From positions 203,738-267,737 of the forward strand of contig JAHECR010000001.1 of the NCBI GenBank assembly GCA_024641655.1: a DNA stretch of 64,000 bases, given 5' to 3'. Below, in pieces: positions 10,827 through 52,003 of the stretch. The position numbers and the translations under genes are program-made. The first letter of the stretch is position 1, and every line of letters starts with the position of its first letter. Source of the stretch: Acidimicrobiaceae bacterium (GTDB lineage: Bacteria > Actinomycetota > Acidimicrobiia > Acidimicrobiales > UBA8592). Below the pieces are notes generated by a model, which did no database searches, was not told where the DNA came from, and saw only the letters and a list, made by a program, of their open reading frames with translations.

Positions 10827-12365
10827 ATGCGGGTCAACATCGGCCAACTCCTCAGTCGTCGAGCTCGGCGAGACCCCGAGCTGGAAGGGGTCTACGAAGC
10901 CGCCAACGGGCGCCGCCTCACCTATCGAGCGCTGAACGAGCGAGCGAACCAGGTGGCGAACCAGCTCGGGTTCGGCGGCGTGGCGCCAGGCGACCGCGTC
11001 GCGCTGCTGCTCGGCAACGGCACCGAGTTCCTCGAATGCTTCTTCGGGGCAGCCAAGATCGGCGCGGTGACCGTACCGCTGAACACCCGCCTCGTGGCCG
11101 AGGAATATGCCTTCATCCTCGGCGACGCCGGAGCCGCGACCTTGGTGTTCGACGAAGCCTTCGCGGACGTGGCTGCCGAGCTGAGGTCACGGGAAGAACC
11201 CGTCGCGGTCACGACCTGGCTCCAGGTCGGCGGAACACCGGCAGAGGGCGCGATCGCCTACGACGAGTGGCGCTCCGCGGGCGATACGGCCGAACCCGCC
11301 ACGGGGGCAGGTGGCGAGGACCTCCTGTTCATCATGTACACCTCAGGGACGACCGGGCTCCCGAAGGGAGTCATGCACAGCCACGACACGATCGTGGCCA
11401 TGCTCATGACCGTGACCGCGAGCGTCGATGCCCACCACGGGGACCGCTACCTGAACGCATTGCCGCTCTTCCACGTCGGCGCCCTGAGCCCGGTCCTGTT
11501 CCAGGTGTTCGTCGGCGGCACGGTCGTCCTCCAAAGAGCGTTCGACCCGCTCGAAGCCTGGCAGTTGATCGGAAACGAGCAGGTGACCTCCACCCTGCTC
11601 GTACCCGCCATGCTGCAGTTCATGCTCGCGACCTACGACGAGACCACCCATGACCCGGCTTCCTTGCGTTGGGTGCTCAGCGGTGCCGCTCCGGTACCCG
11701 TGTCGCTCATCGAGACCTACACCGGGATGGGGATCGAGATCCATCAGGTCTACGGCCTCACCGAGACTGCCGGTTGCGCGTGTGTCATCTCCGCCGAAGA
11801 CGCCCCGGACCATGTCGGATCCACCGGCAAGGCGTTCTTCCTCACCGACGTCCGCGTCGTCGACGAAAACGGCACCGACTGCCCGCCCGGCGTGCCCGGC
11901 GAAGTACTCGTCAGCGCCCCCCACGTGATGGTCGGCTACTGGAACCGGCCCGACGCCACGGCCGAGGCGATCGTCGACGGGTGGCTCCACACCGGCGACG
12001 TGGCCACCGTCGACGAAAACGGTTTCGTCACCATCGTTGACCGCATCAAGGACATGGTGATCTCCGGCGGTGAGAACGTCTACCCCGCCGAGATCGAGAA
12101 CGTGCTGCTCGGCCACGAGAAGATCCTCGACGTCGCCGTCGTCGGCATCCCCTCGGCGAAATGGGGTGAGTCCCCCCTCGCCGTCGTGGTACGCGGCGAC
12201 GAGACACTGACCGCGGACGAGGTGATCGCCCACTGCCGCGGCCGACTTGCCCCGTTCAAGACGGTCAAAGCCGTCGAGTTCGTCGACGTCATCCCGCGCA
12301 ACCCCAGCGGCAAGGTGCTCAAGCGCGAGCTGCGGACACGATTCACATACGACGCACCCGAATAG
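10827..12365 (+). CDS. AMP-dependent acyl-CoA synthetase (FadD-like)
   Basis: A 512-residue ANL ligase with M-Y-T-S-G-T-T-G-L-P-K-G, V-Y-G-L-T-E-T, H-T-G-D-V-A, the D-R-I-K-D-M-V-I-S-G-G-E-N-V-Y hinge and the catalytic lysine in P-R-N-P-S-G-K-V-L-K. This is the organisation of medium- and long-chain or aromatic acyl-CoA ligases. The longer reading from 10737 adds an Arg/Pro-rich N-terminus without family similarity, so ATG 10827 is preferred. It sits alone between a c-di-GMP gene and selO, giving no clue to the substrate. Confidence 0.82.
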   Translation: MRVNIGQLLSRRARRDPELEGVYEAANGRRLTYRALNERANQVANQLGFGGVAPGDRVALLLGNGTEFLECFFGAAKIGAVTVPLNTRLVAEEYAFILGDAGAATLVFDEAFADVAAELRSREEPVAVTTWLQVGGTPAEGAIAYDEWRSAGDTAEPATGAGGEDLLFIMYTSGTTGLPKGVMHSHDTIVAMLMTVTASVDAHHGDRYLNALPLFHVGALSPVLFQVFVGGTVVLQRAFDPLEAWQLIGNEQVTSTLLVPAMLQFMLATYDETTHDPASLRWVLSGAAPVPVSLIETYTGMGIEIHQVYGLTETAGCACVISAEDAPDHVGSTGKAFFLTDVRVVDENGTDCPPGVPGEVLVSAPHVMVGYWNRPDATAEAIVDGWLHTGDVATVDENGFVTIVDRIKDMVISGGENVYPAEIENVLLGHEKILDVAVVGIPSAKWGESPLAVVVRGDETLTADEVIAHCRGRLAPFKTVKAVEFVDVIPRNPSGKVLKRELRTRFTYDAPE

Positions 12366-19206: not shown

Positions 19207-19260
19207 GGTCTTTAGACCCATGACCCGGTCTTTAGACCCATGACCCGGTCTCCAGACCCC
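19207..19260. repeat. Three GGTCTnnAGACC palindromes on a 20-bp pitch
   Basis: A 20-base unit ggtctttagacccatgaccc occurs at 19207-19226 and 19227-19246, followed by a partial third copy. Each copy opens with GGTCT-NN-AGACC (19207-19218, 19227-19238, 19247-19258; the third has CC in the centre). They sit in the gap between the divergent sensor kinase and lipoprotein genes. The pitch of about two helical turns puts all three on one face of the DNA, which suggests cooperative binding of a dimeric regulator. Confidence 0.6.
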
Positions 19261-48876: not shown

Positions 48877-49338
48877 ATGGGAATCAACGAGATCGTGAAT
48901 CAGGCCAATGTCGACGGTTGGATCGCCCGGCACCGGGCCCACTACCTCCAAGACGGCACCGCGGCGCACCTGTGGGACTCGGCGGAGGTCGGCGGACCAG
49001 GCCCGGTCCCCACCCTGCTGTTGACGACGGTGGGGCGCCGCTCCGGCAACACCAGCATCATGCCGCTCATCTATGGCGAGTTCGACGGGACCTTCGTCGT
49101 CATCGCCTCCAAGGGCGGCACCGATCACCACCCGGGCTGGTTCCACAACCTGCTCGAGCAGGAGACGGTCGGGGTGCAGGTTGCCGACCGCGTCTTCCAG
49201 GCGACCGCGAGGGTGGCGACCGGTGAGGAACGCGCTCAGATCTGGGAACGCATGAGCGTCATCTACCCTCCCTACGACGACTACCAGAAGCGAACGACGC
49301 GCGAGATCCCCGTCGTCGTCCTCACACCGGCGCCATGA
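48877..49338 (+). CDS. Deazaflavin (F420)-dependent nitroreductase-family protein
   Basis: A 153-residue Ddn/DUF385 protein. T-T-V-G-R-R-S-G, V-V-I-A-S-K-G-G and the H-P-G-W-F-H-N-L motif are the F420-binding hallmarks. Members reduce quinones or nitro compounds with F420H2. It follows an LLM gene in a likely operon, strong evidence that the host makes F420. Confidence 0.9.
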   Translation: MGINEIVNQANVDGWIARHRAHYLQDGTAAHLWDSAEVGGPGPVPTLLLTTVGRRSGNTSIMPLIYGEFDGTFVVIASKGGTDHHPGWFHNLLEQETVGVQVADRVFQATARVATGEERAQIWERMSVIYPPYDDYQKRTTREIPVVVLTPAP

Positions 49339-49459
49339 GGCCGGTGAACTTGACGAACACCACCATCGCTGGGACCTTGTGCTCTGGGGAGCGCAACCCG
49401 CACGGTGCTGCACTGGAGTTGTACCGAAACGCGGCACGATCGAGCACAGGAGGACCGCC

Positions 49460-49945
49460 ATGCAGGGAACGGTGACCGAGTACATGACCGCCGATGTCGT
49501 GACGGCTACCCCTTCGATGACACTCAAGCAGGTCGATCAGCTCCTGCTCAAGAACGGCATCACCGGGATGCCCGTGGTCGACGACGGGATGCTGGTGGGC
49601 GTGGTGTCGCAGTCCGACATTGTGCGAACGATCTATGACGAGCAACTGCACGCGCAGAGGGTGTCGGACATCTATCAGAGCCCGTTCCCGATCCCGATCG
49701 CCGCGATCGAGGAGTTGTCGAGCCAGAACCGCAAGATCTCCGACCACATCGTGAGCACCACCGTGAAGGAGGTGATGAGCCCGGTGCCGGTCACCGTCGA
49801 GGTGGACACGGCCATCTCCGAGGTCGCTCGTCTCATGGTCACCGAACGCATCCACCGGGTGCTGGTCACCGATCGCGGCCGGCTCGTCGGGATCGTTTCC
49901 GCCCTCGACCTCGTGAACGCCATGGTCGACCCGGTCGACGACTGA
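49460..49945 (+). CDS. CBS-domain protein
   Basis: A 161-residue protein of two CBS motifs: residues 6-55 (G-I-T-G-M-P-V-V-D-D) and about 100-160 (R-I-H-R-V-L-V-T-D-R-G). CBS pairs bind adenine nucleotides. AGGAGG precedes the ATG. The last codons and stop coincide with the first unit of a 26-bp tandem array, so the array may have arisen from the 3' end. Confidence 0.9.
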   Translation: MQGTVTEYMTADVVTATPSMTLKQVDQLLLKNGITGMPVVDDGMLVGVVSQSDIVRTIYDEQLHAQRVSDIYQSPFPIPIAAIEELSSQNRKISDHIVSTTVKEVMSPVPVTVEVDTAISEVARLMVTERIHRVLVTDRGRLVGIVSALDLVNAMVDPVDD

Positions 49946-50067
49946 ACACTGTCGACCCGGTCGACGAATGAACACTGTCGACCCGGTCGACGAATGAACA
50001 CTGGCGACCCGGTCGACGACTGAACACTGGCGACCCGGTCGACGACTGAACACTGTCGACCCGGTCG
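49927..50067. repeat. 26-bp tandem array, five full units and a partial
   Basis: Units start at 49927, 49953, 49979, 50005 and 50031 with an 11-base remainder to 50067. Consensus is CGACCCGGTCGACGA followed by (c/a)TGAACACTG(t/g). Variants form a pattern: c-t, a-t, a-g, c-g, c-t. Each unit with its flank holds GTCGACCCGGTCGAC, nearly a perfect palindrome. The array overlaps the CBS stop codon and fills the gap before the convergent LLM gene. Confidence 0.85.
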
Positions 50068-50091
50068 CGAGGTGACCGGAGCCGCTTCAGG

Positions 50092-51300
50092 TCAGGAGAT
50101 GACGCTCTTGGTCTCTGGATCGGGGTGGGCTGTGCCGGGGGCGTGCGGTGCTGCCGCGCCGCGTTCGGCCTCGTGTTGGGCGAACATGGCGTTGGCTGCG
50201 TTGACACGCTTCTCGACGAGTTCGCCCTGGTTCACCGTCACCCAGTCGTAGGAGCGGTCTCGATTCACGTTCGCCTGCGCGAAGTGCGGGATGACGTACT
50301 GGGCGTACAGCTCCATCGAGCGCCTCAGCTGGGGCCAGTCGGCCCACTGGTTCACCATCAACAACACGGCGCCGAACTCGCCCTGCTTCTCGTAGAGCTT
50401 CTCGATCCTGGCAATCGCGTCGTCGGGCGTGCCGACGACCGCGATCTCGTTCTCGATCACCCAGTCGACGTAGTCGGCCCCCTCGGGTACGTCGTAACGG
50501 GGCTGGTTGTTGTTGAAGTAGCGGATGAACTCCTCGATGCCGTAGCGAACGTTCTCACGGGCCTGCTCGCGGGTCTCGGCGATGTGCATGCTCAGCACCG
50601 CACGGAGCCCGCTCCGATCCATCTCGCGGCCATCCTCGGCAGCGATGTCACAAGCGACCTGCCAGTTGGTGGCCAACGCGTCGAACCCGGCACGCTCGCC
50701 GGCGGCCACGCAGAGCATGCCCAGGTTGTACTTGCCGGCAAGACGTCCGCCCGAGGGCGTGACCGCACTGGCGACGCAGACCTCGGGATGGGGCTGCGTG
50801 TAGGGACGAAGGTGGGTGTGCGCCTCGCGCATCGTGTACCAGTCGGTCTCCTCGGTGACCCACTCGCCCTTGAAGAGCCGCATGATGACGTCGATGCCCT
50901 CGGCCATGCGGCGCCTCGTGTCACCGGGCTCGATCCCCATCATGAGCGCGTCGGAGGCGAGCAGGCCGGGCCCGGCGCCGAACATGACCCGCCCACGCGT
51001 CATGTGGTCGAGCTGGATGATGCGGTTCGCGACGTTGAGCGGATGGTGGTACGGCAACGACACGACGCCTGTGCCGAACTTGAGGTGTTTGGTCCGCTCC
51101 GCCGCCGCAGCGATGAACAGCTCGGGCGAGTCGATGGTCTCCATGCCGGCTGAGTGATGTTCTCCGACCCAGGCCTCGTGGAAACCGAGGTGGTCGAGCC
51201 ATTCACAGAGCTGCAGGTCGCGCTCCATCGCCAGCGTCGGGTTCTCCGCGCGGCCGTGGAAGGGGGCGAGAAAGATGCCGTGGCGCAGTGGGATCGTCAT
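50092..51300 (-). CDS. LLM-class flavin-dependent monooxygenase
   Basis: A 402-residue luciferase-like protein: G-I-F-L-A-P-F-H, W-V-G-E-H-H-S-A-G, S-L-P-Y-H-H-P, G-R-V-M-F-G-A-G-P-G and a C-terminal half with an extra helical section beyond the 300-350 residue forms. Closer to bacterial luciferase and limonene-type monooxygenases than to the other two LLM genes here. ATG 51300 fits the family start. Confidence 0.85.
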   Translation of the reverse strand: MTIPLRHGIFLAPFHGRAENPTLAMERDLQLCEWLDHLGFHEAWVGEHHSAGMETIDSPELFIAAAAERTKHLKFGTGVVSLPYHHPLNVANRIIQLDHMTRGRVMFGAGPGLLASDALMMGIEPGDTRRRMAEGIDVIMRLFKGEWVTEETDWYTMREAHTHLRPYTQPHPEVCVASAVTPSGGRLAGKYNLGMLCVAAGERAGFDALATNWQVACDIAAEDGREMDRSGLRAVLSMHIAETREQARENVRYGIEEFIRYFNNNQPRYDVPEGADYVDWVIENEIAVVGTPDDAIARIEKLYEKQGEFGAVLLMVNQWADWPQLRRSMELYAQYVIPHFAQANVNRDRSYDWVTVNQGELVEKRVNAANAMFAQHEAERGAAAPHAPGTAHPDPETKSVIS

Positions 51301-51412: not shown

Positions 51413-52003
51413 ATGAAGCAACTCGACCTGATCGGAATCCACGTCACGGCTGGAGCCCGGCTCCCGGTGCTGCTGCTGCGTGAAACCGAGGAGCCCCGCC
51501 GTGTCCTACAGCTCTTCATCGGCCCCGCCGAGGCCAATTCGATCGCGTTGGCGGTGAGCGGCCGCGTCCCACCCCGACCGATGACCCACGATCTCATGAC
51601 CGACGTCCTCACCCGCCTCGGCGGCCATGTCGACGCCGTTGAGGTCACCGGACTCACCGACGGCACGTTCTACGCAGCGCTCGTGGTGGGAGCCCCCGAC
51701 GGTTCGCATCGGGTCGACACCCGACCATCGGATGCCATCGCCCTCGCCGTGCGCAACGGCGCCCCCATCTACGCCGCCGACTCCGTCCTCGACGAGGCCG
51801 GATCGTTCGTGGCCGACGACGGCACGATCACCGACCCCGAGCGCATCGAGGCCGAGGTCGCCGAGTTTCGTTCGCTGCTCGAGCGCCTCGACGTAGACGA
51901 TCTCGCAGGATCCGACGACCTCCCTCCCAACGACCTCCCTCCCAACGACCTCCCTCCCCAGGACCCCCCTCCCCGGGACGGCCCTCCGGAGGACAGCGCC
52001 TGA
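51413..52003 (+). CDS. Bifunctional nuclease (DUF151) with DLPPN-repeat tail
   Basis: A 196-residue protein. The N-terminal 130 residues are a DUF151 bifunctional nuclease domain (L-P-V-L-L-L-R-E, I-G-x-A-E-A-x-S-I-A, H-R-V-D-T-R-P-S-D-A-I-A-L-A-V-R). The C-terminus carries repeats of D-L-P-P-N type. AGAAGGG lies before ATG 51413. DNA/RNA cleavage is known for homologues. Confidence 0.82.
   Translation: MKQLDLIGIHVTAGARLPVLLLRETEEPRRVLQLFIGPAEANSIALAVSGRVPPRPMTHDLMTDVLTRLGGHVDAVEVTGLTDGTFYAALVVGAPDGSHRVDTRPSDAIALAVRNGAPIYAADSVLDEAGSFVADDGTITDPERIEAEVAEFRSLLERLDVDDLAGSDDLPPNDLPPNDLPPQDPPPRDGPPEDSA
51917..51976. repeat. 15-bp coding tandem repeat
   Basis: Four units of 15 bases (gacctccctcccaac and decaying copies) encode D-L-P-P-N, D-L-P-P-N, D-L-P-P-Q, D-P-P-P-R at the C-terminus of the DUF151 protein. 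Copies degrade from 5' to 3'. Confidence 0.75.

Follow-up and report, generated by a model that had tools for sequence, protein, structure and literature searches.

A 26-bp palindromic tandem array at the 3' end of a CBS-domain gene, probably grown from the gene end, and similar arrays in the same family

The window analysed here is a 64,000-nucleotide stretch of contig C106 from the genome of an Acidimicrobiaceae bacterium (G000; 3.9 Mb in 121 contigs), and positions given without a locus label are those of the window. A plus-strand gene at 49460-49945 encodes a 161-aa protein with two CBS domains (ORF; Pfam PF00571, E-value 5.1e-28, two stretches). The protein ends with the residues V-D-P-V-D-D and the gene ends with a TGA stop at 49943-49945 on the plus strand. 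A convergent gene for a luciferase-like monooxygenase is located on the minus strand at 50092-51300 as placed by our own gene caller (Pfam PF00296, E-value 3.2e-43, frame from 51411), and the two genes are separated by a gap of 146 bp at 49946-50091. The end of the CBS gene and this gap feature a tandem array of 26 bp × 5.5 on the plus strand at 49925-50067, which Tandem Repeats Finder scored at 258 with a 96% match. The array proposed by the sequence-only reading is therefore real, and its start lies 2 bp before the 49927 given there. The 26-bp pattern, with at most one mismatch, has five matches in the window and none in 100 dinucleotide shuffles. The extra copies occupy 122 of the 146 bp and leave a residual 24 bp with no strand assigned (50068-50091), so the earlier description of an array that fills the convergent gap is slightly strong. 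Two other repeats are present in the window, a 15-bp coding repeat at 51915-51994 that forms a D-L-P-P-N type run at the C-terminus of a bifunctional-nuclease-domain protein, and a 20-bp × 2.7 array at 19207-19259, with the hairpin GGTCTTTAGACC, that is located between divergent genes.

The array consists of five full units and a partial copy, all read on the plus strand. Unit 1 (49925-49950) is the seed unit and comprises the coding end with the last six codons, the stop, and 5 bp beyond it. It is the only unit that overlaps the CBS gene, which narrows the earlier claim that five full units overlap the gene end. Units 2 (49951-49976) and 3 (49977-50002) have the same sequence, as do units 4 (50003-50028) and 5 (50029-50054). 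The TGA of the CBS gene recurs in every full unit. The partial copy of 13 bp (50055-50067) has an abrupt edge, and the bases beyond it are unlike a decayed continuation. Two bases of the unit are variable, T/G at base 2 and C/A at base 18, and their order in units 1-5 is TC, TA, TA, GC, GC, with T in the partial copy and at most two identical units in a row. This confirms the block pattern that had been described, and such blocks are as expected from whole-unit copying or exchange. Stepwise unequal exchange, the process proposed for them, is compatible with the pattern but falls short of proof. The composition of the array is 23% A and 62% G+C. Its head-to-tail, near-identical units fall within the size of about 10-100 bp that defines a minisatellite or VNTR, and they abut directly with spacers absent, unlike the units of a CRISPR array. 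The alignments of six near-full-length CBS homologues reach residue 156-158 of 161, and the array starts at codon 156.

Units 1-3 contain a perfect 6-bp stem, GTCGAC-CCG-GTCGAC, and the TGA stop of the gene lies 3 nt past the hairpin of unit 1. Units 1 and 3 have a folding energy of -7.9 kcal/mol each, and unit 4 folds differently at -4.2 kcal/mol. A hairpin had been predicted for each unit; it is exact for units 1-3, but in units 4-5 the stem is broken by the T-to-G change at base 2. In comparison with shuffled sequences, the window unit gives p values of 0.062 for the stem and 0.01 for the energy.

Searches for the unit elsewhere in the 3.9 Mb genome with up to three mismatches found only the five array units and no further place, so the unit is not dispersed in the manner of REP/REPIN sequences. 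The exact unit is also absent from the viral contigs that were searched, and a mobile or dispersed family was ruled out on these two results. A DNA search of 99 genomes, G000 included, gave just short weak matches outside G000, and at five of these matches (L037-L041, 29-69 bp) the repeat finder found no 26-bp-like array. The relatives listed by the protein and DNA searches include no other genome of this genus. Tandem GTCGAC-N3-GTCGAC pairs occur in 13 of 397 genomes of the order, G000 included, as sequence matches among those listed.

A second array of the same build, 28 bp × 5.2, was found by DNA search on contig C66 of G000 (locus L042). Its unit 1 consists of the last codons and the stop of a thiolase-like gene (Pfam TLP1_add_C), and the array occupies most of a convergent gap. 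The unit has the GTCGAC-N3-GTCGAC core in common with the window unit and differs in the remainder. Relatives of the thiolase-like gene were obtained from 25 loci, of which 16 with 57-63% identity were compared and nine proteobacterial ones with 34-38% were omitted. The closest homologues are mostly from records titled Acidimicrobiales, Acidimicrobiaceae, Acidimicrobiia or Candidatus Microthrix, and the 16 include one record titled Neomarinimicrobiota and one titled only Actinobacteria. An array at the gene end was found in none of these 16 homologues, which indicates that the C66 array grew at the gene's own end. Counted by eye, 5-7 residues follow a conserved glycine in the 16 homologues and 9 follow it in the array gene, so that the homologues end 2-4 codons earlier. 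The last codons of the thiolase-like gene may have been gained together with the array.

The search for additional arrays, with the repeat finder and our own simple gene caller, covered 1.26 Mb of G000 (including the window) as well as 133 kb of sequence from G001 and 757 kb from six further genomes. G001 belongs to the same family and another genus, and the six others are G003, from the same family, and five genomes of the same order. The filter required a period of 15-70 bp, 2.5 or more copies, a match of 88% or more, a score of 80 or more, and less than 70% coding sequence, and 13 arrays in G000 and 5 in G001 are within it. Gene 3' ends are overlapped by 6 of the 13 arrays in G000 (by 14-25 bp) and 3 of the 5 in G001 (by 2-19 bp), and random placement of a 26-bp stretch in G000 hits a gene 3' end with a frequency of 0.173. 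The binomial p value is 0.015 for 6/13 and 0.0016 for 9/18. Without the two starting arrays, those of the window and of L076, the overlap is 7/16 in both genera (p = 0.013), and in G000 alone it is 4/11 (p = 0.11), which is counter-evidence to the bias. The earlier claim that the window array has grown from a stop codon is supported by this placement and by the C66 array, which has the same build at an unrelated gene with array-free homologues. The stop bias may reflect tolerance rather than cause.

The genes associated with arrays are diverse. Pfam matches identify CBS, thiolase-like, HlyIII, and nucleotidyl transferase genes and two transport permeases, and the gene at L061 is an Mrp-type ATPase by eye. 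The genes at L074a and L169 have no Pfam match, and the match of the plus-strand gene at L167 is below the cut-off. The array at L139 overlaps only a called gene start, that at L172 merely the last 2 bp of its gene, and that at L107 both a stop and a start. The L107 array (10881-10965 of that locus, 29 bp × 3) repeats the ATGA stop/start junction of two ABC permease genes, and its later units form the hairpin GCGCGT-CATGA-ACGCGC, which has a shorter stem in unit 1. Palindromic arrays of 23-25 bp and 5-7 copies are also located at L061:19738-19883, L071:15870-16029, L074:2614-2738, and L137:19111-19262. In the L061 array the stop codon of the gene directly follows the hairpin. The true copy numbers at L061 and L137 may be higher because the former adjoins N and the latter is at a contig end. 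Three other G000 arrays have a 100% match, three more lie outside the filter, and the A content of the 13 G000 units is 4-24%, with the strand not set to that of the gene.

When the 18 units of G000 and G001 are compared with dinucleotide shuffles they show an excess of hairpins (Fisher p = 7e-4 for the stem and 1.5e-4 for the energy). Taken singly, 5 of the 18 are at p < 0.05 on the stem and 6 reach 0.05 on the energy. The stems near the stop measure 6, 7, 7, 7, 5, and 4 bp in the G000 array genes, where the stretch includes part of the next copy, and just 4 bp in the G001 array genes.

The arrays are unevenly distributed among the sampled genomes. Within the filter, arrays of at least 2.9 copies number 12 in G000 (9.5 per Mb), 5 in G001, and 0 in the six other genomes (757 kb), which gives p = 6e-4. 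This sampling was not random, since C66, with 4 of the 12, had been picked on account of its array; when the window and C66 are set aside, 7 G000 arrays remain in 1.12 Mb, a density of 6.3 per Mb (p = 0.027 versus the six others). G025 has a 72-bp × 3.6 array just beyond the period limit, and when it is counted the p values become 0.004 for all arrays and 0.10 when only the unselected G000 sequence is compared. Duplications of fewer than 2.9 copies number 7 in G000 (1.26 Mb) and 7 in the six others (757 kb). Since short duplications are found in both groups, the longer class looks like something added. The copy numbers in G000 are 4-7 in 11 arrays versus 2-4 in 8. An excess of 1.5-copy seeds was sought and 4 were found versus 3 in one shuffle, so pre-existing seeds of this kind were rejected as an origin. 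Among the 13 arrays tested for decayed copies past their edges, one (L155) beats all 500 shuffles.

The sequence-only reading had suggested that the array is a two-way terminator. A bidirectional terminator or insulator for convergent genes, which in the window would be 29 bp apart without the extra copies, could have been kept and multiplied by selection. In the three convergent arrays of G000 the gap has grown from 29 to 146 bp, from 12 to 131 bp, and from 10 to 111 bp, and RNA of the whole window array is predicted to fold at -71 kcal/mol on the plus strand and -83 kcal/mol on the minus strand (z = -6.0 and -8.5), however, this strong folding is the automatic outcome of repeating a palindrome. 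No U-tract or T-run was found after the stem, and terminator-like sites number zero on the plus strand and one marginal site on the minus strand, where shuffles yield 0.5. In addition, two of the five stems are broken, and the broken state has itself been duplicated. A classical terminator is thus poorly supported. An Rfam search of 49300-50600 gave no matches at E ≤ 1. Arrays are located in convergent gaps in 3 of 13 cases in G000 and 1 of 5 in G001, where placement expects 15% and 21%, and at the usual gene ends a slight rise in structure is located 24-36 nt downstream and not at the stop. A stem of at least 6 bp at the stop is present in 11.8% of ordinary G000 ends (n = 1020), compared with 13.9% for internal controls (n = 1049); the arrays thus do not simply repeat a usual terminator. 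The terminator or insulator explanation is considered unlikely. A protein-binding array had been suggested as well, and a palindromic unit at a constant 26-bp spacing would suit it. Some pairs of units are alike beyond chance (8 of 91 have p ≤ 0.05, against an expectation of 4.6, and five of these reach the floor of 0.007), in several cases via a shared GTCGAC; however, the units of different arrays are mostly dissimilar, the exact unit is missing from the viral contigs, and the DNA matches outside G000 are weak and short, which together make a binding array extremely improbable. Invention or inflation of the copies by the assembly has to be weighed for a genome in 121 contigs in which some arrays are at contig ends or adjoin N runs, and array lengths of 85-174 bp in G000 may suggest that read or k-mer length limits the copy number. 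Among 59 contig ends inspected, 3 carry such arrays, in addition to one coding repeat, and one array adjoins N, which makes the copy numbers unreliable. The ordered variants among the copies, and the recurrence of the same build at other loci and in another genus, argue against an artefact of this kind, which is judged highly improbable; it could alter the copy count but hardly the existence of the array.

A dedicated activity could also concatenate a hairpin-bearing stretch in one burst. Such a hairpin-handling enzyme, an HUH nuclease that might be the RAYT-type transposase of G000, or another polymerase, would make gene-end concatemers of 3-7 copies with few intermediates at unrelated loci. 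G000 features a Y1 transposase ORF of 217 aa (Pfam PF01797; G000:C106:333403-333738; L223:1384-2037), and the palindrome GGTGTC[A/T]GACACC is located near both of its ends. The palindrome has 40 copies in G000, often paired 39 bp apart, and 6 copies in G024, which is without a Y1 match, and it is absent in the other 24 of 26 genomes. The ORF and its palindromes look like a RAYT with a REPIN population of the type described by Bertels and Rainey (PMC3116915). A 31-bp × 2.4 array in a convergent gap at L066:14281-14354 is built on the same REP palindrome. Y1 matches were found in 3 of 31 genomes, G000, G001, and G025, and these are exactly the three of the eight sampled genomes that have non-coding near-identical arrays of about three copies or more. 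This association was noticed post hoc; the contrast of 3/3 with and 0/5 without gives a one-sided chance of 1 in 56, calculated by hand, among related genomes. The Y1 gene of G025 is flanked on both sides by arrays, L225:1273-1375 (36 bp × 2.9) and 2299-2423 (32 bp × 3.9), which are outside the sample and were not filtered for coding status. One of the two Y1 loci of G001 has a 30-bp × 2.7 array about 1 kb away, but the other has none. The excess of G000 arrays with 4-7 copies over those with 2-4 would also fit a burst. Against it, a genome without Y1, G030, contains a 147-bp × 9.8 array, which is diverged (66% match) and falls outside the filter. The array units are also unlike the REP palindrome, no pair with it being in the ten best of 91. 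The dedicated activity is therefore regarded as very unlikely and the association of Y1 with arrays as a weak lead.

Several known systems resemble the window array in part. Bacterial VNTR or minisatellite loci consist of head-to-tail, near-identical units of tens of bp with variants in block patterns. The window array shares the head-to-tail units and the variant blocks, whereas the arrays described here overlap gene ends beyond the placement expectation. The MIRU of mycobacteria are one dispersed family with longer units that is arrayed in tandem where a stop and a start codon meet. The L107 array is similar by description in that it repeats an ATGA junction, but here the units mostly differ between loci. 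The closest precedent is provided by the tandem repeats of Borgs, which are archaeal extrachromosomal elements. According to Schoelmerich et al. (2023, PMC9879509), Borg repeats have units of 20, 18, and 21 nt in an example and an independent, recent origin, and about half of them are intergenic or begin with a unit that lies wholly or partly inside a gene end. They are often flanked by partial copies, and some have predicted hairpins; they are defined without mismatch, with at least three units and at least 50 nt, and they are A-rich (PMC9879509). The window array appears to share with these repeats the unit size, the independence of the arrays, the partial copy, the hairpins, and a first unit in a gene end. 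It differs in its bacterial genome, its GC-rich units, and its inter-unit variants, and neither the perfection nor the A bias is found. REP/REPIN sequences, according to Bertels and Rainey (2011, PMC3116915), are short extragenic palindromes that can cluster in tandem. G000 has a RAYT-type gene beside paired palindromes of this sort, but the 26-bp unit is undispersed and has no notable likeness to the G000 REPIN. The window array is real and belongs to a known kind, of which it is a somewhat unusual case, and the pattern extends across the genome.

Judged from sequence comparisons, the window array is probably a minisatellite that grew locally, with the 3' end of the CBS gene as its seed, and it is one of a class of arrays in G000 and a second genus, a reading held with moderate confidence. 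Some other gene ends show the same build with mostly different sequences, which speaks for copying in place rather than for a single special element. In such a process the gene-end hairpin would stall or misalign DNA synthesis, and backward slippage or template switching would copy the stretch repeatedly, probably several copies at once. Unequal exchange may have shuffled the variants afterwards. The synthesis of several copies at once is hinted at by the lack of an excess of 1.5-copy forms, by the 11 of 19 arrays with at least 4 copies, and by the sharp end of the 13-bp partial copy; this partial copy also exceeds the homology of ordinary slippage, which counts against the slippage step. The gene end would tolerate the array because the first copy leaves the coding sequence and the stop intact. 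Loss of SbcD, a hairpin nuclease, was considered as a cause; SbcD is below the cut-off in the family, but the result does not discriminate because only 6 of 41 genomes pass. Loss of NucS as a cause in G000 was ruled out, since NucS is present there (24 of 31 genomes are over the cut-off), and G001 has partial matches only. The arrays are probably near neutral. Transcripts of both strands would fold strongly, and an effect on transcript ends may be a by-product.

With the same build present at several gene ends that are unrelated, and with array-free homologues available for one of them, the origin of tandem repeats becomes testable at its first step, that of hairpin, stop codon, and burst. If a one-burst process is true, it would be a bacterial counterpart to the unexplained process that makes the Borg repeats. 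Given their likeness to the arrays described here, repeats of the Borg type seem to reach beyond archaeal giant elements. If copy number shifts the ends of convergent transcripts, these arrays would offer a simple route to heritable changes in expression.
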